64,000 bases of DNA from contig JABSRN010000049.1 of NCBI GenBank assembly GCA_013214025.1, forward strand, positions 62,001 to 126,000. Direction: 5' to 3'. Shown here piece after piece: positions 23,941 through 39,748 of the stretch (position 1 is the stretch's first letter; the number at the start of each line of letters is the position of its first letter). Below the pieces are notes generated by a model, which was not told the DNA's origin, searched no databases, and saw only the letters and a program-made list of their open reading frames with translations. The position numbers were made by a program, and so were the translations under genes. This DNA comes from Polyangiaceae bacterium (lineage in GTDB: Bacteria; Myxococcota_A; Polyangia; Polyangiales; Polyangiaceae).

Positions 23941-26900
23941 ATGAGCGATCCGCCGCCTCGTGCCACCCCGACGCAGCTTGCTGAATTCGAAATAATTCGG
24001 CGGCTCGGGATCGGCGGCATGGCCGAAGTCTTCCTAGCGAAGAAACGAGGCGCTGAGGGCACCTACAAACTGCTGGTCGTCAAGCGAATATTGCCGGCCC
24101 ACACATCGTCGCGTCGCTTTCAGTCGATGTTCGCCGAAGAGGCGCAACTCGCCACCCGGCTCAACCACCCCAACATCGTCCAGGTCTACGAGTTTCAGGA
24201 CTACGGCGACGAGGGGCAGTTGCTCAGCATGGAATATGTAGAGGGGCCCGACCTGAGGAAATTGGTCCTCGCGGCCAGAAGCAAAGAGGTCCGAGTTCCG
24301 CCTTTCGTGGCCGCCTATGTATTGGGCGAGGTCGCTAAGGGGCTGCACTACGCCCACGAACGGAAAGACGAGGGCGGTGAACGTCTCGACATTGTGCATC
24401 GGGATGTGTCCCCTCAGAACATTCTGTTGAGTTTTGACGGGGCGGTTAAAATCGCCGATTTCGGCATCGCCACGGCGAACCTCTTTCGCGAGGAGCCGGG
24501 CGTTCTCAAGGGCAAGACGGGCTACATGTCGCCCGAGCAGGCTCGGGGAGAAAAGGTCGACTGTCGAACTGACATCTACTCATTGGGGGTAGTGCTTCAC
24601 GAGGTGTTGACGGGTCGGCCGCTTCACGGCTCCGCCAGTGAGGGGGAACTGCTGGCCCTGGTGCGGGATGGCAATGTGCAGCCGCCCAGCTTGTATGCGC
24701 CCGGCGTACCCGAAGATCTGGAAGCTATCGTGATGCGCGCGCTTTCCCGGGAGAAAGAAGATCGCTTCCAAAACGCGCGGGATTTTGCCGCCGCTCTAAC
24801 CCGCGTGTTGTTTCAGCACAAAGAGCTAGTGGATAGCCAAGTTCTGGAGGGCGTGATCTCTCAGCTAGTGAGTCGCGAACATACTTCTCCTGGCGTGGCT
24901 CTGGACGAATCTGCGGACGGTGGCGATCCCGGTGAATTGTCGGCGGACTCTGCCGTGGGAAACGATTCGAATAATCCCGACCGGAATCGGGTAGAGGAGC
25001 GCAGACTTCGGGCGAAGTCCGGACGCGAAGTGCGCCACGTCGCCGTGGTGAGCCTGCGCTTAAAAAAGATGGACGAGCTCGCTGCGGCGATGGGATTCGC
25101 TCGTGCAGCGCAGTTCAGTGATCTGCTCCGGGCGACATTGGATGAAATCGCGTTCAAGCGAGGCGCCAGGTGGTCCTGGGAAGATCGCGAAGTCGAGCAA
25201 GATGGTCGCAAGTGGAGCATCGCGACCGGCGCGCGAGCGGTGCTCGGACTGCTCGCGAATCCGGCGGGCGCTTCCGCCGAAGCTGCCTGGCTGGCCGTCG
25301 ACGTGCACGAAGCCATTCAAGGCGCCTGTGACGGCATGAGTGTGGAGCTCTGGGCTAGCGTCGGAATCGTTCGCGGTATCGCTACCGGTAGTCGGGATTT
25401 GGACGGCCATTTGATTCGCCATCACCTGGAAAAATCTGCGGATTACCTGGCTGACGCTCTGGGCGAACGAGCGCCCGAAGGGCAGACCTGGGTGGCCGGC
25501 GGGTTGTATCGCTTGGTGCGGCGAGAATTCGTGTGGGGGGACGCTCCCACCATTGAGCTGCCCGATGCCGAGGCGTGGAACTTGCCGGGCAATATGCGCA
25601 TCTACGCCCTCAAGCGACCGCTCACCCGTCAAGAGCGCCTGCAGCAGGCGGCGAATGCCCCTCGGGACTTGATCGGACGAGACGCTGAGCTCGGGGACTT
25701 GCACGCCGCTTACCACCGCGCGGTCTCAGTGGTTTCCGCCGGCCCCTTATCCAAAGTGACATCCAGCTTGTACGGCTCGGCCTCCGGAGACACCGACCGC
25801 GAACTCGTGGGGCGCATGGTCAGCCGAGTGGTGGTCGGTGAAATGGGGATCGGCAAGACCGCCTTGGTGTCGACCTTCTTGACGGAACTCCCGCCGGACG
25901 CACGAGTTTTGCGCATCGAATGTTCGCCGGTACGCTCCGAGGTGCCCTACTACGCGGTGGGCCAGTGTGTACGTGAGCTGACGGGAATTCACCTCGACCA
26001 GCTTCCCTCCGAAGCCAGCGAATTGATCCGTACCGCCCTCGGCGAATTTGCCAGCGGCGAGTCGGGCGAGGACATCGTGGACCGCTTGGCGTCACTGGTG
26101 ACGGGCCGCATGACGCCTGCCCAAGACCAAGAGGATGCCGTCCACCACAAACATCTGCTGGCATCCGGCCTACGACGCTTTCTGCTGCGCGCGGCCTTGG
26201 ACGCGCCACTGGTAATGGTAGTCGAGGGTGTGCAATGGGCGGATCTAGCCAGTTTGGAATTGCTGACGTCGATCATCAGCCGCACGGATCCACTGCCCAT
26301 CCTGACGATTTTCGTCACCCGCCCCGATCAGCGAACCGACGCTCGCACCGAAGGCCTTGTCCGCATCGATCTGCGGGCGCTGAGTTCAGACAAACAGATC
26401 CGCTTGGTTCAGGCTCATGTAGAAGCCAGCGAAGGCGTAGGTGCGGCTTGTCGGGAACTGCTTCCTCGAGCCGCAGGCAACCCCTTCTTCTTGCTAGAGA
26501 TAGTGGATGCTTTGCTGGAGCGCGGTCTGCTCGAAGTGGTAGATCTGGAGGATGGTGGCGCTGAGCTTCGGCGAACGGAGCGAGCGGGCGAGCACCGCGA
26601 GGCTCTCCCTTCGACGCTCGAACAACTGATCGCGGACCGTCTCAACGAACTGCCGCCTCAGGAACGGCGGGTGGTCTCGTGGTTGGCGGTATCGGGTGGC
26701 CCCCTCGAGGAATCGGATCTAGCTGAACTGGCCGGGGCCAGTGACGATGCGGTGATCCGACTTTGCGCCCGAGGATTGTGCGACGCCCGAGGGGACGCGG
26801 TCGATGTGCGGCATCCGCTCACTCGCGACGTAGCCTACTTGGGATTGGAGATGCCTGAGCGCGTCGCCATGCACAAACAGCTGGGTGAATTTTTGCTCAA

Positions 26901-28380
26901 GACGCCGGCGGCCGAGGGGCTCAACGCCGCGATCGTCGCTCGGCATTTGGCCTACGGCGGCGCGGTGGAGCAAGCCGCCGACTGCTACCTGGAAGCCGCC
27001 CGGGCCGCTCAATCCAGTTACCAACTCAGTTACGCGATTCGCTATTTTCGCCAAGGACTCGACATCCTGCCGCCGGATAATTTCCGACGCATGGAGGCGC
27101 TGTCCGCGCTGGAGAACATCTTTCGAATCCAGGGGCGCTCCAAAGAGCGGGAGACTTCGCTGGCTGAGCTCAGGCGGTCGGTGCACGACGCGGGCAGCAG
27201 CCATTGGGCCGCCATAGCGCTAATTCGGACCGCCCGTTTCGATCTCGACGCGGGGAATTTTGCGCGGGGTTTGGCTCTGTCTCGCCAGGCGGAAACCGTC
27301 GCGCGGCAGGCCGGCTCCTCAACCTTGGAGGTGGAGGCTCAGGCCTTGATGGCGGAGACCCTGCGCGATCTGGGAGACATGCAAGGAGCTTTGGCGGCCT
27401 GTGACCGAGCCCTGGAAACGGCGAGTCACTCTCGTGTGCCGTCACGCCTTCGGGCGGACGTGCTGCGAGCTCGAGGAACGCTGCTACTGCGCGTCGGGCG
27501 TGTGCAAGAAGCGGTGGACGCTCAGATCGAGTCCATCGGCGTGTTTCGTCAGGTCGGTGCGCGGCGCGCCGAAGCGCGGGCGAAAAATGCTCTCGCCTTC
27601 GCCATGTTGGTGCAAGGCCGATTCGAGGACACCATCGCGTTGGCTCTCGAATCGATTCGCATCGACCTGTCTATCGGTGGACGCTTTCAAGTCGCTAAAA
27701 CCCTGAGCAACATCGGGCAGTCCTACGCCCGCCTCGGCGATGGGGCCCAAGCTATCGCTTACCTGTCCCGGGCCCGGGATGCACACCAACTGTACGGTGA
27801 TCAAGACGGCCGCGCCGATACGCTGCTCGTCAGCGCAGAGGTGCTCATGGAATTCGGCGAGGTCAGCCAGGCGGAGACCTTCGTCGGCGATGCTGGAGCG
27901 CTCTCGGCCGTAACGGGCAGCGCCTATGACTCCGTGCACGAGAAGATTCTGCGCGCGATTGTAGCTCGTCACGCGGGAGATTCTGGCAGTGCCGTGATGC
28001 ACGCCTTCGATGCTCGTCAGGTGGCCGAGGCTCAGGCTTACGTGGCGTTCCATTTCTACGCGATGGCGATCGAGTCGGTTGCGCGAGTTGAAGTGGGCGA
28101 GCAACACACGGGCGTGCTGCTCGCCACCACCGCGATGGGCGCGATCGAGACGGTGCAAGGATCTGAGTACGGACTCGAGACCCGTGCCCTGTGTTGTGAC
28201 GCTCTCCGATTGGCGGGATCACCTCAGCTCGATATCTTGTTGGAGCGGGCCCAGCGTTTTACGGAGGCCATTCGAGACTCCATTCGCGAGCCCAGCCTAC
28301 GGGAGGGCTTCGTTGGGCGCGCCCTGGTGGATCGCCTGATTCGCGGGTCGGTCTCTGAAGCTGCGCCGCCCAACAAGTGA
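23941..28380 (+). CDS. Ser/Thr protein kinase fused to AAA-type ATPase and TPR domain
   Basis: 1479 residues. Residues 14-290 are a Hanks-type kinase that looks active: G-loop GIGGMAEV (23-30), Lys48, HRD 153-155 with N160, DFG 173-175 and SPEQ 197-200. Residues about 365-560 resemble a degenerate class III nucleotide cyclase domain without clear metal or substrate residues. An ATPase follows with LIGRDAEL (577-584), Walker A GEMGIGKT (633-640) and a divergent Walker B around VMVVEGVQWAD (758-768), where Glu replaces the first Asp. The remainder is TPR-like. No membrane helix is seen, so it is cytoplasmic. It is a paralogue in design of the gene at 34952. Confidence 0.9.
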   Translation: MSDPPPRATPTQLAEFEIIRRLGIGGMAEVFLAKKRGAEGTYKLLVVKRILPAHTSSRRFQSMFAEEAQLATRLNHPNIVQVYEFQDYGDEGQLLSMEYVEGPDLRKLVLAARSKEVRVPPFVAAYVLGEVAKGLHYAHERKDEGGERLDIVHRDVSPQNILLSFDGAVKIADFGIATANLFREEPGVLKGKTGYMSPEQARGEKVDCRTDIYSLGVVLHEVLTGRPLHGSASEGELLALVRDGNVQPPSLYAPGVPEDLEAIVMRALSREKEDRFQNARDFAAALTRVLFQHKELVDSQVLEGVISQLVSREHTSPGVALDESADGGDPGELSADSAVGNDSNNPDRNRVEERRLRAKSGREVRHVAVVSLRLKKMDELAAAMGFARAAQFSDLLRATLDEIAFKRGARWSWEDREVEQDGRKWSIATGARAVLGLLANPAGASAEAAWLAVDVHEAIQGACDGMSVELWASVGIVRGIATGSRDLDGHLIRHHLEKSADYLADALGERAPEGQTWVAGGLYRLVRREFVWGDAPTIELPDAEAWNLPGNMRIYALKRPLTRQERLQQAANAPRDLIGRDAELGDLHAAYHRAVSVVSAGPLSKVTSSLYGSASGDTDRELVGRMVSRVVVGEMGIGKTALVSTFLTELPPDARVLRIECSPVRSEVPYYAVGQCVRELTGIHLDQLPSEASELIRTALGEFASGESGEDIVDRLASLVTGRMTPAQDQEDAVHHKHLLASGLRRFLLRAALDAPLVMVVEGVQWADLASLELLTSIISRTDPLPILTIFVTRPDQRTDARTEGLVRIDLRALSSDKQIRLVQAHVEASEGVGAACRELLPRAAGNPFFLLEIVDALLERGLLEVVDLEDGGAELRRTERAGEHREALPSTLEQLIADRLNELPPQERRVVSWLAVSGGPLEESDLAELAGASDDAVIRLCARGLCDARGDAVDVRHPLTRDVAYLGLEMPERVAMHKQLGEFLLKTPAAEGLNAAIVARHLAYGGAVEQAADCYLEAARAAQSSYQLSYAIRYFRQGLDILPPDNFRRMEALSALENIFRIQGRSKERETSLAELRRSVHDAGSSHWAAIALIRTARFDLDAGNFARGLALSRQAETVARQAGSSTLEVEAQALMAETLRDLGDMQGALAACDRALETASHSRVPSRLRADVLRARGTLLLRVGRVQEAVDAQIESIGVFRQVGARRAEARAKNALAFAMLVQGRFEDTIALALESIRIDLSIGGRFQVAKTLSNIGQSYARLGDGAQAIAYLSRARDAHQLYGDQDGRADTLLVSAEVLMEFGEVSQAETFVGDAGALSAVTGSAYDSVHEKILRAIVARHAGDSGSAVMHAFDARQVAEAQAYVAFHFYAMAIESVARVEVGEQHTGVLLATTAMGAIETVQGSEYGLETRALCCDALRLAGSPQLDILLERAQRFTEAIRDSIREPSLREGFVGRALVDRLIRGSVSEAAPPNK

Positions 28381-30719: not shown

Positions 30720-30826
30720 CCTTTGGCGCTAGCGCGACGGCCTGCGGCACTCAATAGGGACATCCCGGGCAGCGAAAATTGGCGCCGGCTGTGGGGATTC
30801 TTGGGCCCCTAGGCCATCTGCGCAAT

Positions 30827-31960
30827 ATGGACGATGATGCTCGCGTGCGGCTTCCGTTCCGAAATGCCCCGGCGCGGGGAGTTGCGTTAGGCCCGCGAAT
30901 GTGGGGCGCGCGGCTGGCGCGATATTGTGCGCGGCGCTATCGCGTGTGGGTGTCGCCGGAGCGGGTTTGGCTGCACCATGCCAGCGCTGTTCCGGAAATT
31001 CTTCCTTCGCAATGCGCTTGTTGTGGACTTCCCGCGTCCCAAGTTTCCGCAGAGGGCGATTCCGGCTGGCAGCGCCTGGTGCCCTACTGCGACTATTGTC
31101 TGGGTCACGCCTCTCGACCCGCTACGCGCCAGCTGGGTGCGTGGCTGGCCAGTACGCTGCTCGCCGTCACCGCCTCCGCTACCTTTCCACTCATCTGGCC
31201 GTGGTCCAGTTGGGCCATTCAATTGATCGTCGTTCTGTTGTTGACGGTCACGCCGGTAGGCTTGGAGCGTTGGTGGCCGCCGAGCCGAGCGAAAGGTCAC
31301 GTCGCTGCCAAAGCGTTGTGGTTGGGTTCTGATGGTTTGGTTCGGCTTCCGACACGGGCAGTGGCGAACGGGTGGTTGCCTGCGGGGCGGACCGGGCAGC
31401 CACGCAGGGAACCAGGTCGGCGCCGCGACGGTCGTGGGGTCATCTTCCCGCTCGCGCTGGCGGCCCTGCTGTTGCCTGTATTTCATCGGCTTCATCACCC
31501 TCCGCTCCGAGTGCTGAACTTGAGTCGGGAGGTCCTGAGCCTTGAGGTGGATGGCCGTAGTATGGGAACTTTACAGCCATCTAGTTCCGAGAGCGTGAGC
31601 GCGGGACTGCATCTGCGTCTGCCCAGCGGCTCTCGACAATTGCTCGTGCGCAACCAACAGGGTGCGGTACTAGCTGAGACCCGGGCCGAGCTGCTGAGTG
31701 GTGCCCATCATTTGTATGCGCCGCTCAGCCCTCACCAATGTTTTTGGATTGAGCAGATGAGTTACGGCCGGGCCAAACACCCAAAGGCTGCAATGAACCG
31801 GGCGCTGGGCGGGCACACTCGTTTTTGGGTGCTGCCGGATTCTATCGATATCTGGTTCGCTCCGCTGCCTCAGGAAGTTGCCGACGGCATGTCCAGCGGG
31901 GGCGTCGTTTCGGCTCTTCGACACGCGCTCTGCGTGGACGTGCCCGAGCTGACCCGCTGA
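30827..31960 (+). CDS. membrane protein with two CxxC pairs
   Basis: Unknown; 377 residues from ATG 30827. Near residue 65 there is CACCG and about 30 residues later YCDYC, a possible zinc-ribbon-like pair. Two hydrophobic segments follow (LASTLLAVTASATFPLIW, then AIQLIVVLLLTVTPVG). After an Arg-rich stretch there is a third helix (VIFPLALAALLLPVF) and a beta-rich domain. It diverges from the helicase gene. No recognised family. Confidence 0.6.
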   Translation: MDDDARVRLPFRNAPARGVALGPRMWGARLARYCARRYRVWVSPERVWLHHASAVPEILPSQCACCGLPASQVSAEGDSGWQRLVPYCDYCLGHASRPATRQLGAWLASTLLAVTASATFPLIWPWSSWAIQLIVVLLLTVTPVGLERWWPPSRAKGHVAAKALWLGSDGLVRLPTRAVANGWLPAGRTGQPRREPGRRRDGRGVIFPLALAALLLPVFHRLHHPPLRVLNLSREVLSLEVDGRSMGTLQPSSSESVSAGLHLRLPSGSRQLLVRNQQGAVLAETRAELLSGAHHLYAPLSPHQCFWIEQMSYGRAKHPKAAMNRALGGHTRFWVLPDSIDIWFAPLPQEVADGMSSGGVVSALRHALCVDVPELTR

Positions 31961-32086: not shown

Positions 32087-32941
32087 GTGAGCGAAACGTC
32101 GAACCCAGCCGTACCTGAATCAAGAGCCACCGCAGAGGGAGCCAGCGATAGCGCTCCACCCGCCTCAGCGTCCTCCAAAGACAGCGCTGCGCCGTCTGCT
32201 GTTGAGGCTGAAGTGGTTGAGGCCGAAGTATCGCCTGCCAGCGGAGAAAAGCCGGTCGAGGTGATCGATGCCGTGGAGGAAGAGGTCGATATTCTCGATC
32301 CTCTCGAAGAAGCTCAAGCAGAAGCGGTCAAATTCAAAGAGCAGCTGTTGCGAACTGCGGCAGACTTCGACAACTTCCGCAAACGATCCCGGAAAGAGGT
32401 GACTGACGCTGCGCGTCGTGGCCGGTCGGAATTGCTCTTGGAGTTGTTACCGGTATTCGACAATTTGGAGCGCGCGACCGCTCACGCAGCTTCCGCAAAG
32501 GACGTGAAATCCTTGGCGGACGGAGTGTCGATGGTGATGCGTCAGTTCACTGACACGCTAAATAAGTTGAGCATCAGTCGGATTGAGACGGTGGGCAAAC
32601 CCTTCGATCCGTCGGTTCACGAGGCCATCCAGCAGCAGGAAACAGCCGATTTCGAGCCCGGGACTATCGCTGCCGAGGTCCAAGGAGGCTACCGCCAGGG
32701 GGATGCGTTGATTCGCCCGGCGATGGTGGTTGTAGCCAAAGCGCTGCCTACTCCCGAGCCTGCCGAAGAAGCCAAGGAAGAATCTAGCGCCGCTGATGGC
32801 GAATCCGCGGCGGCCGGCTCCGAGGCACCGGCCGAATCGGAGGGCACTGGTGATGAGGGCACTGGTGATGAGGGCACTGCGTCAGAAGATTCCGACGACG
32901 CTGCCGACGCTGCCGACGCTCCGAGCGCTGAAGAGGAATAG
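32087..32941 (+). CDS. grpE: nucleotide exchange factor GrpE
   Basis: 284 residues from a GTG with AGGA about 8 bases upstream. GrpE releases ADP from DnaK. The core (residues about 85-225) has the long coiled coil ([29 protein letters not shown]) and the beta-domain motif [11 protein letters not shown]. The length exceeds the usual 180-200 residues because of acidic, Ala/Ser-rich tails at both ends. The C-terminal tail has a tandem repeat of EGTGD. It precedes dnaK by 64 bases. Confidence 0.95.
32840..32878 (+). repeat. 15-bp tandem repeat in grpE
   Basis: GAGGGCACTGGTGAT occurs at 32840-32854 and 32855-32869, followed by a partial third copy. It encodes EGTGD repeats in the acidic tail. 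A GACGCTGCC repeat follows about 25 bases later. Confidence 0.8.
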
Positions 32942-33005: not shown

Positions 33006-34874
33006 ATGGGAAAAATTGTCGGTATTGACCTAGGCACCACCAACTCTTGCGTGGCTGTGCTCGAAGGCACATCCGCTTCCGGTGCCCCAGAAGTAATTGT
33101 CATCCCCAACGCGGACGGCGCCCGCACCACTCCCAGCGTTGTCGGATTCACGGCTTCTGGTGAACGCCTGGTTGGACAGGTTGCCAAACGCCAGGCAACG
33201 ACCAACCCAGAGAACACCATTTACGCTGTGAAGCGTCTGATGGGGCGCAAGTGTAATGAGGGGGAAGTTCAGAAGCAGAAGGCTCTGGTCCCCTACCACA
33301 TCGTCGAACACGACAACGGCGATGCCTGGGTAGAGGCTCAGGAGAAACGCCTCTCGCCTCCCGAGATCGCAGCGATGGTGCTCGGCGCGATGAAAGAGAT
33401 CGCAGAGACCTATCTGGGCGAAGACGTGACTGAGGCCATCGTCACGGTCCCTGCTTATTTCGACGACGCTCAACGTCAAGCGACCAAGGATGCCGGAGCG
33501 ATTGCTGGCTTGGACGTCAAGCGCATCCTCAACGAGCCGACGGCTGCTGCGTTGGCGTACGGTTTGGAGACGAAAGATGCCCAGACCATTGCGGTTTACG
33601 ATCTTGGTGGCGGTACTTTCGATATTTCGGTGTTGGAGATCTCGGAGGGGGTATTTAACGTCAGGGCGACCGGTGGCGACACCCATCTAGGTGGTGAAGA
33701 CTTCGACATTCGCATTATCGATATGCTCGCCGATGAGTTCAAGAAGACGAACGAGATTGAGCTCCGCGAAGATCGCATGGCGTTGCAGCGCCTCCGGGAA
33801 GCGGCGGAAAAAGCGAAGCATGAGCTGTCGTCGTCTCTGAAGACGGAAATCAACATTCCGTTTATCTCCACAGGTTCTGACGGCCCCTTGCATCTGGAGC
33901 GCTCCTTCACCCGCAGTGATCTCGACATCCTCTGTTCCGATCTCATCGAGCGCACTATCGACGCCTGTCGAGTGGTGTTGAAAGATTCGGGCCTCAAGGA
34001 GAGCGCTATCGACGAGGTGGTGCTGGTGGGCGGCATGACACGAATGCCTGCCGTGCAGAAGGCCGTCAAAGAGTTCTTCGGCCGGGGGCCGAACAAGGGC
34101 GTGAACCCGGACGAGGTGGTGGCCACGGGTGCCGCGGTCCAGGGGGCAGCCCTCGGTGGCGACATCGACGAAGTGCTGTTGCTCGACGTGGCGCCGCTAT
34201 CCATCGGTGTCGAGACAGGCGGCGGGGTGTTCACGGCATTGATACCGCGCAACACGACTATCCCGACCGAGAAGAGCGAAGTGTTCACGACTAGTTTGGA
34301 CAACCAGCCCTTCGTGCCGATTCACGTATTGCAGGGCGAGCGTGAGATGGCGGAGGACAACCGAAGCCTGGCGCACTTTGAGCTGACGGGTATTCCGCCA
34401 GCACCCCGTGGCGTGCCCAAGATCCAGGTGACCTTCCGAATCGACTCGGATGGCATTCTTGCCGTCGAGGCGACGGATCTTGGTACCAGTCGGACTCAAG
34501 CCATCAATGTGACACCCAGCAGCGGGTTGAACGAGGCCGAGATCCAGCGACTGCTGGAAGAAGGCGAGCGCTTCAAGGAAACGGACCAACTCCGTCGCGA
34601 TCTAGCGGAGGTGAAGAATCAAGCGAACACGCTGATCTACACGTCCGACCAGGCGCTTGAGGGCTACAGCGATCTACTCGAGGCCGACAAGGTCACCGAG
34701 ATCCAGGAGCTCATTGATGTGCTGCGGGAAGCTCTCGAGACGGAAGCCGATCTCGGCGCCATTCGCGAAGCCTACACCTTGCTAGAAAATGCCACTTTCG
34801 CCATCGCTGAAGCGATGTACGGAGTGGACGAAGAAGAGTACGGCGAAGAGGGCGAAGCGGAAGCATCCGAATGA
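33006..34874 (+). CDS. dnaK: molecular chaperone DnaK (Hsp70)
   Basis: 622 residues, normal for the family. It shows the ATPase signatures [32 protein letters not shown] and [21 protein letters not shown], and the substrate-domain start VTPLSIG-like [12 protein letters not shown]. Notably VAP replaces the more usual VTP, a minor change. The C-terminus is acidic. It is cotranscribed with grpE. No CIRCE element was seen upstream of grpE. Confidence 0.97.
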
Positions 34875-34951: not shown

Positions 34952-37594
34952 GTGAGCCTCGCGAAGGTGCCGGAAAGATACGGCCCGTACAGCGTCATCG
35001 AGGAGTACGAGAACGGACCGGTATTTCGTAGTCTGCGGATCAAGAGCCATGGCGTAGAGGGCTTCGAAAAGCGCTTGGTGGTCAAAGAGCTGCAGCCGCG
35101 CTACGGCGAATTCCAGAAAGCGCGCGACTATTTTGTCGAGCAAGGCCGCAGCGCGGTCCGTTTGCGTCACCGGAATTTGGTGTCGACCTTCGATGTGGGC
35201 ACGCTGGCCCCGGAATATCCTGAGCGGGTTTTCGTGGTGCAGGAGCACATCAGCGGCGTGTGCCTCGCGGATTGGCTCGACGCCCTGGATGCGAAGGGCG
35301 AGCGGTTTCCCTTGGAGCTCGCGCTGTACCTCATCGCAGAACTCGCCCGCGGGCTCGATAGTGCTCACCGACTTCGGGACGACAATTTACGGCCGGATGC
35401 TGCCACCCACCGCTGGCTGACGGCCGCGGATGTTTGGCTCACTCGCGATGGCGAAGTGAAGTTGGCGGATTTTGGCCTGACGTCGACGGCCTTGATTCGC
35501 AGCGCGAGTGTTGACGAGTTGCCGCTTGCCATGGCACGGGACATTGCCTCGCTGAGTCCCGAGCAACTCTGCGGGAAGCCTTTTGGCCCCTGGAGCGATA
35601 TCTTCGGTTTGGGGGTGTTGAGCTACGAGCTACTCAGCGGTGTTTCGCCGTTCCTGGAGGGGAGTCCCGCGGAAACGGCGGCGCGGGTAGTGGAAGGCGG
35701 AGCGCGACCCCTGCAGACTGTTCAAGCGCTGCCGGAGGACATTGGCTTGCTGATTGATGGTTGCCTCAGCGCGTCCGTCGAGAATCGTCCTCGGGAAGCG
35801 GCGCTGATCTATGAAGGCATATCCTCGTCTGCGCGGCGAGCGGGCCTTCGGGGAGGGCAGTTCGCCCTGGCGAAATTTATTCGGGATTCCTACGACACCT
35901 CCTCGGCGCCTCCCCCGTTGGCGTCGGCGCTGGATCGGGACGCCAGTCTGCGGCCGTCCTTGCCCGTAAACGTGCCGGAAGTGGATTTGTTGGGCGCTAG
36001 CGGCGTCGTAGCTGGAACTCATTGCGACGGAGCTCTGCTCGCGGTGACTGGCTGTCCCGGGCAAGACTGGGATCGCGAGGCTGCGGGCGTTTTGCTTGAG
36101 CGCTGGGGCGGGATCCGCATCGATGTCCCATCCGGCGCCTTGCTGGGCTGGTTCGGAACAGGCGCCGGCGGGAATGCGGAGGCCGCGGTTCGTGCTGGCC
36201 TGGGACTACTACGAGTGCTGGCAGACGGTGGCTCCCCCAGCGTTGGCATTGATTGCGGGCAGCTATCGATTTCTGGGGGCCGGCCTGTTTCCGATGCCAA
36301 GCTTGCCCGGCTCAGCGAGTCGGCCGAAGCCCTCGCTGGGCGGTCGGAGTCGGCGCTGATGGTGAGTACAGCTGTGGCGGGACCACTGCGCTCCTTCTAC
36401 GATCTCAGCAGAGAGGGGTCTGAAGCTCCCAAGAGTTGGCGCGTTGGCGATCCCCGCTGCTCTTCGGCAGAGTCTCGATTTGTCGGACGTCGCGCCGAGT
36501 TCAAAGCCATCAGTGAATGTCTGTCGCGCGCCTCTAGACGAAAGCTTCAGGTGGTCGCGGTGGTGGCGGGGGTGGGCATGGGAAAATCGCGGCTGCTCGC
36601 TGAGGCGGGGCGTCGCATGAAACGCGCTCAGCTCGATGTGGGTTACTACGTAGCGGGCTGTGCAAAGCTGGACCAGCGGCCCTACGCGGCCATCGCGGCC
36701 ATGTTGGGCCAACTGTGTGGAATGCAACCCACTGATTCCCTCGAGCGAGTGGCAAGTGTCGAGCCCAGGTTGCGGACGCTGGGCTTGGAGAGTTCCCAAA
36801 TCACGACAGCGTTGGATCTCCTGCGGGGTACGGCGGATCTCACAGCCGTGGCCGTAGGGGCTGCGTTCACGGAGATCCTGCGGAGCCTCAGCAAGGATCG
36901 GTTGCATGTGCTGTTCTGGGATGACGCTGACGAGCTCGACCGGGAGAGCTTGGCGTTGCTCTCGGTGATCAGCGGCGAGCTGAGCGGATCTCGATTGGTC
37001 CTTGGCTTTGCCGCGGTTACAGCCCTCGCCACAGAAATGGGCGCGCTGCCCATCTTGATACCTCTCCTTGAGCCCAAGTTTGCCGAAGAGCTCTGCCGGG
37101 CCCGGCTGGGAGCGGCCGCGTCGGCAGCCCCGGGCGTAGCTGTCGTGATGTCAGCGGCGGACGGAAACCCGGCTCACCTCGAAGTCGCGAGCGATCTGTG
37201 GCTCGAGCTGCGTGCTGGATCGGCGTCGGTGACCCGTCCGGATATACTCCAAGGGACTGTGGAAGAGCTGATGCTCGAACGGCTCAGCAGATTGGGCGCC
37301 GCGGTGTCGGATTTGGCGCTCGCTGTCGCGGCCTTGGGATCTCCGGTCGACGTGGCCGTCGCGGCACAACTGCTGGGTGTGACGGTGTCGGAGCTTCACC
37401 AGCACGGTGGCGCGCTAGAGGCCGCGGGTTTGGCTCGCCGCAATCCACCGACGAGCATCAGTCTCAGTTCCGGTCTATCGCGAGCGCTCCGTGCGGCGGG
37501 CTCCCCGCGACTGACCCTGTTGCGAGATCGTTCCGGAGAGGCGCATACCGTCGTGTATGGGCGACTCAGTCGCTTTGACCGAAGCCAGCCATGA
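34952..37594 (+). CDS. pseudokinase fused to an AAA-type ATPase
   Basis: 880 residues from a GTG. Residues 10-300 follow the Hanks-kinase fold (VVK at 43-45, DFG 173-175, SPEQ 202-205, SDIFGLGVL). The glycine loop is missing and the catalytic loop reads HRW at 153-155 instead of HRD, with the metal Asn160 replaced by Asp. Phosphotransfer is therefore unlikely. Residues about 345-490 resemble a degenerate cyclase-type domain. An ATPase follows (FVGRRAE 510-516, Walker A GVGMGKS 540-546, Walker B around VLFWDDAD 653-660). It ends in a helical region. It lies 77 bases after dnaK. Confidence 0.88.
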   Translation: MSLAKVPERYGPYSVIEEYENGPVFRSLRIKSHGVEGFEKRLVVKELQPRYGEFQKARDYFVEQGRSAVRLRHRNLVSTFDVGTLAPEYPERVFVVQEHISGVCLADWLDALDAKGERFPLELALYLIAELARGLDSAHRLRDDNLRPDAATHRWLTAADVWLTRDGEVKLADFGLTSTALIRSASVDELPLAMARDIASLSPEQLCGKPFGPWSDIFGLGVLSYELLSGVSPFLEGSPAETAARVVEGGARPLQTVQALPEDIGLLIDGCLSASVENRPREAALIYEGISSSARRAGLRGGQFALAKFIRDSYDTSSAPPPLASALDRDASLRPSLPVNVPEVDLLGASGVVAGTHCDGALLAVTGCPGQDWDREAAGVLLERWGGIRIDVPSGALLGWFGTGAGGNAEAAVRAGLGLLRVLADGGSPSVGIDCGQLSISGGRPVSDAKLARLSESAEALAGRSESALMVSTAVAGPLRSFYDLSREGSEAPKSWRVGDPRCSSAESRFVGRRAEFKAISECLSRASRRKLQVVAVVAGVGMGKSRLLAEAGRRMKRAQLDVGYYVAGCAKLDQRPYAAIAAMLGQLCGMQPTDSLERVASVEPRLRTLGLESSQITTALDLLRGTADLTAVAVGAAFTEILRSLSKDRLHVLFWDDADELDRESLALLSVISGELSGSRLVLGFAAVTALATEMGALPILIPLLEPKFAEELCRARLGAAASAAPGVAVVMSAADGNPAHLEVASDLWLELRAGSASVTRPDILQGTVEELMLERLSRLGAAVSDLALAVAALGSPVDVAVAAQLLGVTVSELHQHGGALEAAGLARRNPPTSISLSSGLSRALRAAGSPRLTLLRDRSGEAHTVVYGRLSRFDRSQP

Positions 37595-37712: not shown

Positions 37713-37922
37713 TCAGGCGGAGGCGGATTCCGGGGCGGGGCCGACGATAGCGTCGCCACTCACCTTGGCGAGGGCCGGGCCATTGCTCATCCACAGAGAG
37801 ATTGTTGTGGTGCGCGCAGGGAAACTCGTATCGATCCGTAGGATCCTTCCCTGACGGCCATCATCGAGGAGCACCATCTGCCCGGTAGTCATCAAATGCT
37901 GTAGCTTCCCCCGTCTTGCCAT
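37713..37922 (-). CDS. possible small protein downstream of dnaA
   Basis: A 69-residue frame starting at the ATG ending at 37922 (MARRGKLQHLMTTG). It is compact, with a balanced composition and beta-strand character (VLLDDGRQGRILRID). A TATACT lies 7 bases upstream of the ATG and could serve as a -10 box for a nearly leaderless message. It lies in a 583-base gap between the pseudokinase and dnaA and is not recognised as any family. It could be spurious. Confidence 0.35.
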   Translation of the reverse strand: MARRGKLQHLMTTGQMVLLDDGRQGRILRIDTSFPARTTTISLWMSNGPALAKVSGDAIVGPAPESASA

Positions 37923-38060
37923 GACGTTGAGTATAGGCCCATTGCCTACACTCGCCAGTTTTGGGAGGTGCATCGCCCCCGACGAACCCGGTTGAGTCCG
38001 AATGGAAAAGGCCAACGATATGGAATCGTTCTGTAAGTTGCGATTACATCTACTGAACAC

Positions 38061-38177: not shown

Positions 38178-39698
38178 CTAGAGAGCTAGCTGCTGTTCTA
38201 AAGCGGCCAGGTGAGCCGTGACTTCCGGGTCCATGGCTTTCAGGCTCTCAACGCGCCTCACGGCGCTCATCACTGTGGTGTGATCGCGATTTCCGAAGGC
38301 CCGCCCGAGTTCCGGGAAGCTACAGCTCAAGCGTTTCCGGCAGAGATACATCGCTACCTGACGAGCGAAGGCGACACTGCGGTGTCTGTCCTTACTCAGT
38401 AGTTCGGCGTTGGTGAGCTTGAAGTGGCTGCACACTGCTTTCTGGATCTCTTCGACACTGACCACCTTGGCGCGTTGGGGAGCTGCCTGCCGTAGCTCGT
38501 GGCTGGCGAAATCGTAGGTGATGGCTTGGCCGGTTAGCGAGGACTTCGCCGCGAGGCGTATCAAGGCGCCTTCGAGCTCTCGCACGTTGCTGTGAACCGT
38601 CTGGGCCAGCAGCACCGCTACATCGTCGTCCAAATTGATGCCCTCGAGAGCAGCCTTCTTGCGGACGATCGCGACCCGGGTCTCAAGCGCTGGTGCCTGG
38701 ACGTCAGCCACGAGGCCGGACGCAAATCGAGAGATCAAGCGATCCGGCATGCGCTGGAGCTCGTGCGGGTACTTGTCACTAGACACAACGATGGACTTGT
38801 CCGCGTCGTGCATCGCATTGAACGTATGGAAGAACTCTTCCTGGGTCTGTTCGCGGCCCGCGAGAAACTGAATATCATCCAGCAGGAGGAGATCACAGCG
38901 GTCGCGGTAGCGCCGACGGAACTCGTCCATTTTGTGATGCTGGAGCGCCTCGATGAATTCGTTGGTGAACCGTTCGGCTGATACATAGAGGATCATTGCA
39001 TCGGGCCGGGCAGCCTTTACCTGGTGCGCGATGGAGTGCATCAAGTGGGTCTTGCCCAAGCCGGTCCCCCCGCAAATGAACAGCGGATTGTATCGAGGGC
39101 CGCCACCCCCAGCCGACGCGATAGACGCGGCGTGGGCCAGGGCGTTGGACGGTCCCACAACAAAGTTGGGGAAGGTGTGCATTGGGTTGATGGGATCGCC
39201 GAGCGCAGCCCCAGAGCGGGGCATGGCTCGGGGGCGCGACGAAGGAGCCGATCGCGATCCGGGGTATGAGGACGGATTGGACCGCGAAGGAGGAGCTTCA
39301 GAAATGCTCGCCGCGCCCACTGCCGGACGCTCTTCGCGTTCGATCGTGCCGCTGCCTCCGGCGCTGGCCTCAGGCGGAGCACTGGCACTAGGCGCCGCCA
39401 CCGGCGTCTCCAGCTTCGCGCTGATGCTCCAGGCCACTTGAATGGCCTCCACGGCCTCATTCCCTGCGGCTGATAAGCTTTGTCGCAGGCCGTCCGTTAG
39501 AGCCGGGACGAAGTGACTCTTGACCCAATCCCGAACGAACTCGTCTCGGGCAGTGAGTCTGAGGGTGAGGGATCCGCCCTCGCCCTCAGTCAGCCCGCCG
39601 AACTCAACGCTGCAGAACCACTGGTCAAATGAGGCTGGAGACCGATCTCGCGTGTAGGCGATGGCGTCGGCCCAGAGTTTAGAATCTTCTAACGGCAT
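38178..39698 (-). CDS. dnaA: chromosomal replication initiator DnaA
   Basis: 506 residues from the ATG ending at 39698; a TTG ending at 39719 would add 7. Domain I is residues 1 to about 90. Domain II is a long Pro/Ser/Ala-rich linker (about 97-165). Domain III is the AAA+ core with Walker A CGGTGLGKTH (209-218), Walker B LLLLDDIQF and the VRELEGALIRL segment. Domain IV ends with the DNA-binding signature AFGNRDHTTVMSAVRRV. A perfect DnaA box lies about 50 bases upstream, which is consistent with autoregulation and a nearby origin. Confidence 0.97.
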   Translation of the reverse strand: MPLEDSKLWADAIAYTRDRSPASFDQWFCSVEFGGLTEGEGGSLTLRLTARDEFVRDWVKSHFVPALTDGLRQSLSAAGNEAVEAIQVAWSISAKLETPVAAPSASAPPEASAGGSGTIEREERPAVGAASISEAPPSRSNPSSYPGSRSAPSSRPRAMPRSGAALGDPINPMHTFPNFVVGPSNALAHAASIASAGGGGPRYNPLFICGGTGLGKTHLMHSIAHQVKAARPDAMILYVSAERFTNEFIEALQHHKMDEFRRRYRDRCDLLLLDDIQFLAGREQTQEEFFHTFNAMHDADKSIVVSSDKYPHELQRMPDRLISRFASGLVADVQAPALETRVAIVRKKAALEGINLDDDVAVLLAQTVHSNVRELEGALIRLAAKSSLTGQAITYDFASHELRQAAPQRAKVVSVEEIQKAVCSHFKLTNAELLSKDRHRSVAFARQVAMYLCRKRLSCSFPELGRAFGNRDHTTVMSAVRRVESLKAMDPEVTAHLAALEQQLAL

Positions 39699-39748
39699 AT
39701 TGTTCGGAGCGGATGGCAAAACGACAAACGGAACAGGGGCTCAACAAC

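Follow-up and report, generated by a model that had tools for sequence, protein, structure and literature searches.

The gene at positions 34952 to 37594 of the window (the whole 64,000-nucleotide stretch of Polyangiaceae DNA analyzed here) has a GTG start and encodes an 880-amino-acid protein, PSK. Judged from its residues, PSK is a pseudokinase, with a kinase-like domain lacking the canonical catalytic residues joined to a degenerate cyclase-like domain and an AAA_16 ATPase. It belongs to an uncharacterized but conserved DnaK-locus family of this bacterial order, in which the Asp of the HRD motif was lost independently five times, PSK included, on a tree built from nonkinase columns. The best reading of PSK, and one we consider probable, is an ATPase-driven signaling protein whose kinase domain has become a noncatalytic module.

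Domain architecture of PSK

All PSK features lie on the + strand. The kinase-fold domain (residues about 7 to 300; 34970 to 35851) matched the Pfam Pkinase/PK_Tyr_Ser-Thr profiles above their cut-offs (E values, 8.4e−13 and 8.7e−18). In the family alignment, EEYENGPVF (35000 to 35026) stands where the family has the glycine loop GxGGMAEVF, Gln64 (35141 to 35143) replaces the helix-C Glu, HRW at residues 153 to 155 (35408 to 35416) replaces HRD with the catalytic Asp changed to Trp155 (codon TGG), and Asp160 (35429 to 35431) replaces the metal-binding Asn. The residue set of an active Ser/Thr kinase is incomplete (Glu64Gln, Asp155Trp, and Asn160Asp). The lysine of the VVK motif, K45 (35084 to 35086), is retained in PSK and in every family row covering it, and DFG is retained at residues 173 to 175 (35468 to 35476). 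The first-pass annotation had already recorded HRW, Asp160, the kept VVK Lys and DFG, and the lost glycine loop, and the family alignment confirmed them. A whole-protein AlphaFold model built from 28 sequences (mean pLDDT, 81) kept the kinase fold and aligned with PknA of Mycobacterium tuberculosis over 269 residues (Z score, 30; rmsd, 2.5).

A fold search with the whole model listed kinases only, and therefore the middle domain (residues about 355 to 502; 36014 to 36457) was folded and searched alone. It adopted a class III nucleotide cyclase fold (pLDDT, 90) and matched the adenylyl cyclase Ma1120 using Foldseek (E value, 8e−8) and in a profile search against the PDB (E value, 5e−5). No metal-binding Asp pair was conserved across the family in alignment A2, which is a family alignment rather than a residue-level alignment to an active cyclase. 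The following AAA_16 (STAND-type) ATPase domain (residues about 509 to 720; 36476 to 37111) scored above the Pfam cut-off (E value, 2e−14), and the family alignment located both Walker A (AGVGMGKS; 36566 to 36589) and a Walker B region around D657 (WDD; 36905 to 36925). In the model, a helical region that is winged-helix-like by position follows (37112 to 37561). The C-terminal TPR half of the orthologues is missing after it, PSK ending at residue 880, and no remnant was found downstream.

A dnaK-linked family with recurrent loss of kinase residues

Upstream of PSK on the + strand are grpE (32087 to 32941; Pfam GrpE E value, 9e−48) and dnaK (33006 to 34874; Pfam HSP70), the latter ending 77 bases before PSK. 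A search of the dnaK-PSK gap for terminator- and promoter-like sites came back empty, which would fit co-transcription. The order grpE, dnaK, family gene on one strand is shared by 30 sampled genomes including the window, with gaps of −19 to 271 bases, and the remaining family members are located elsewhere in their genomes. This bears out the link to the chaperone genes proposed in the first-pass annotation; a functional tie between PSK and DnaK may be supposed, with gene order as its sole basis. A literature search for a kinase in the myxobacterial dnaK operon found nothing relevant. Two ORFs near the locus had no Pfam match, one of 393 residues between uvrD and grpE (30779 to 31960) and one of 115 residues (37713 to 38060, −) between PSK and a dnaA-like ORF (38178 to 39719, −). 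The replication origin may be close to this locus.

Relatives were searched for across the order in 120 genomes. With PSK as the single query, a separate search of genome contigs identified no relative, the sequence being too divergent for this method. Against the dnaK-linked family profile, PSK matched over its full length (E value, 1.1e−271; 904 bits, with the PSK row included in the profile). Its true relatives are kinase/degenerate-cyclase/AAA_16/TPR proteins of about 1,300 residues, most of them with intact kinase motifs, and the full-length ones from other genera of the same family share 30 to 35% identity with PSK. Pkinase and AAA_16 were matched in all 28 aligned members and TPRs in many. 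The member from G029 (L082:6719-9466) has only 916 residues with its kinase motifs intact, and a TAG inside the matched stretch may be a truncation or a frame break.

Motif tables were compiled for 68 family rows and 20 more. The VVK Lys, the DFG Asp, and Walker A were kept wherever rows cover them. The HRD Asp was lost in five rows, namely the window (Trp), G094 (Thr), G063 (Gly), G090 (Gly), and an extra copy in G015 (Cys), and all five have also lost the helix-C Glu. The window's clade comprises 12 rows, with canonical kinase motifs found in G006 alone. Its three losers are PSK (HRW, Asn to Asp), G094 (HGT, Asn to Asp, DFC), and G063 (HGG, DFC), and eight more relatives have drifted more mildly: G012, G077, and G099 carry HGD and DFC; G020 carries HGD and DFA; G059 and G137 carry HGD; G147 carries HGD and DFA with the helix-C Glu changed to Gln; and G122 carries DFC with Asn changed to Ser. 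Outside this clade, where G090 (HGG) and the G015 extra copy (HRC) fall, nearly all members have the Lys, Glu, HRD Asp, Asn, and DFG, with variation at the HRD Arg (HLD, HCD, and HSD). HRW is therefore not conserved, since orthologues carry HRD, HGD, HGT, HGG, or HRW. The HRD orthologues, which the first-pass annotation would have taken as a sign of sequencing error, instead reveal repeated lineage-specific loss within one gene. In addition to the HRC copy, which lies away from dnaK (L072:6107-10030), G015 has an apparently intact copy spread over two contigs (L086 and L073), making a live-plus-dead pair within one genome.

On a careful tree built from nonkinase columns, the fewest changes of the HRD Asp that explain the rows are five. 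A single ancestral loss was rejected, a result to be read with caution given that two of the rows are long branches. Holding the clade's three losers together cost 69 log units (p = 2.7e−6), and holding the four dnaK-linked losers together cost 111 log units. G020/G094 and G122/G063 are same-genus pairs, each with one member that has kept the Asp. The exact placement of the window and G090 in the tree is unsure because both are long branches. Independent support for placing PSK in its clade comes from KIN2, a second kinase gene in the window, whose identities to G077, G137, G012, G147, G099, G006, G059, G094, G020, and G063 are 61 to 66%.

KIN2, constraint, and the weighing of explanations

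KIN2 (23941 to 28380, +) encodes an intact kinase, cyclase-like, AAA_16, and TPR paralogue. The first-pass annotation had described PSK as mirroring it, with motifs at equal residue numbers. The domain order is indeed common to both, but "mirrors" overstates the likeness because the convincing BLASTP alignment is limited to the kinase domain (29% identity), and PSK is without the TPR half. With KIN2 started at 23941, the numbering agrees for HRD/HRW (153) and DFG (173) but not for the Lys (48 in KIN2 versus 45 in PSK). KIN2 is merely one of the nearer of some fifty kinase matches in the window's genome (5.77 Mb in 184 contigs), and it is best placed as an ancient paralogue from another subfamily, not as the live counterpart of PSK. 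A recent tandem duplication of KIN2 was likewise rejected, as PSK matches the dnaK-linked family from end to end and KIN2 has its own orthologues at 61 to 66%. The HRD Asp is missing in 2 of 43 other kinase domains sampled from this genome. Two likely pseudokinases in the same genome are L190 (G000:C152:203142-203996), which has Val at the Lys, HGG at the HRD motif, Thr at the Asn, and DYG, and L199 (G000:C26:25001-25813), which has Arg at the Lys, HGN at the HRD motif, and Ser at the Asn.

The proposal that PSK serves KIN2, 11 kb away, as a catalytically dead partner or decoy would draw on the shared domain order and on the two genes also lying within about 16 kb of each other in G006, G020, G094, and G059. 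They are far apart in other genomes, though, and KIN2 is intact in genomes with a live PSK-family protein, in those with a dead one, and in those with none. A fixed pairing of kinase and decoy is unlikely because all key residues were intact in 19 of 19 readable KIN2 orthologues (another locus breaks off before reaching them) and an orthologue was found in 101 of 108 family genomes, versus 76 of 108 for the PSK family, a difference that is approximate as the thresholds differ. We regard this proposal as very improbable. The least credible explanation is that PSK is still an ordinary active kinase, its alterations being tolerated or products of sequence error. Orthologues with HGD that keep the Asn and the DFG Asp (G012, G020, and G059) may well be active, but PSK has also lost the Asn, the helix-C Glu, and the glycine loop. 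TGG differs from the Asp codons at all three positions, such that Asp to Trp requires three base changes, and PSK deviates at 40 of the 85 kinase positions that are at least 95% conserved across the family, with 45 kept. These two observations together rule out a base-call error behind HRW. Some pseudokinases transfer other groups, and K45 and D173, kept in all losers, could serve such a different transfer, as in SelO or SidJ. Against this, all five losers lack the helix-C Glu along with the HRD Asp, the PSK glycine loop is gone, and no common new residue has taken the site (W, T, G, G, and C), which makes other chemistry improbable.

The most serious alternative, possible but on balance unlikely, is that the lineages concerned no longer need the kinase output and the gene, under weak constraint, is heading for loss. 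The PSK branch is the longest of all rows and long in every domain; G090 is similar, and neither copy has the TPR part or any remnant of it. For these two a fading gene is a real alternative. The family fell below threshold in 32 of the 108 genomes, and the position downstream of dnaK was empty of family members in G002, G008, G010, G011, and G016. Decay would not readily explain why Walker motifs and 17 of 20 family-conserved AAA positions are kept in PSK, or why five separate lineages each have an intact long frame. The 880 codons contain zero stops, compared with about five in a neutral simulation at 0.1 substitutions per site, and GC by codon position is gene-like (0.70, 0.52, and 0.70). 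The open frame argues against long neutral decay, which concerns past decay and not present selection; at about 30% identity, the nearest relatives are too distant for dN/dS. On a fixed topology, kinase end-branch length divided by AAA end-branch length gave 3.2 for PSK, 3.5 for both G063 and the G015 copy, 3.0 for G147, and 2.1 for G094, whereas rows outside the altered set had a median of 0.83 and a maximum of 2.2 (36 rows). G090 was the exception among the losers at 1.26. The kinase part of PSK thus changes about three times faster than its AAA part.

Through all losses, the core of the ATPase was retained together with the Lys that contacts ATP and the DFG Asp, which suggests that the cell is keeping the ATPase and not the kinase reaction. 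A STAND-type switch with a repurposed kinase domain is the most economical explanation. Under this preferred reading, PSK would be the local version of a signaling ATPase encoded directly behind grpE-dnaK, and its ancestor would have carried a degenerate cyclase fold, a STAND-type AAA ATPase, and a TPR part in addition to a Ser/Thr kinase that was still active. Kinase chemistry would have disappeared, with the ATPase kept, in the window lineage and in no fewer than three further lineages that hold the gene at this position, each time separately. The AAA ATPase would then act as a working switch and the kinase fold as a regulatory or binding module, perhaps for a nucleotide or a protein partner, and PSK may be expressed together with the DnaK system. 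Both the absence of phosphotransfer and the ATPase activity of PSK are predicted from sequence. It is a doubtful, speculative extension that the grpE-dnaK operon of this myxobacterial clade carries a dedicated chaperone ATPase regulator whose kinase has repeatedly been converted to a pseudokinase; if true, it would provide a natural live-to-dead kinase series within one orthologous gene.

Comparison with known systems

The nearest curated architecture is TIGR03903, the TOMM system kinase/cyclase fusion, which has the same order of kinase, cyclase-like, ATPase, and C-terminal parts. It matched KIN2 and the full-length orthologues with E values of 1e−59 to 1e−46, but scores of at most 202 bits (KIN2, 202) lie far below its cut-off of 706 bits, and PSK was not among the matches listed. 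The kinase domains of M. tuberculosis PknA and PknB have their fold in common with PSK (Z scores of about 30). Both are active and anchored in the membrane, and neither has cyclase-like or AAA parts. EcpK of Myxococcus xanthus, also a myxobacterial pseudokinase, is reported to have a biological role (PMC12004946). It is one of the bacterial tyrosine pseudokinases and acts in polysaccharide synthesis, and its fold is unrelated to that of PSK. Kinases of the present kind are very numerous in myxobacteria, with 99 in M. xanthus and 317 in S. cellulosum (PMC2887360).

A 2025 review covers seven families of bacterial pseudokinases (PMC12599244), and a word search of that text returned no Myxococc-, AAA, TPR, or cyclase. 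The catalogued Ser/Thr pseudokinases (ActPs1-3, GLW, CP1, DYD, and DLHK; PMC12599244) likewise have a kinase fold with lost motifs and are conserved between species. Pseudokinases are usually met in this way, as finished, conserved families. The PSK family is unlike those in having live and dead members at one orthologous gene position, where the kinases of sister genera range from intact through half-altered to dead and the attached ATPase is conserved. Because sister genera hold these states at one position, side-by-side tests can address how the conversion proceeded and what benefit it brings.
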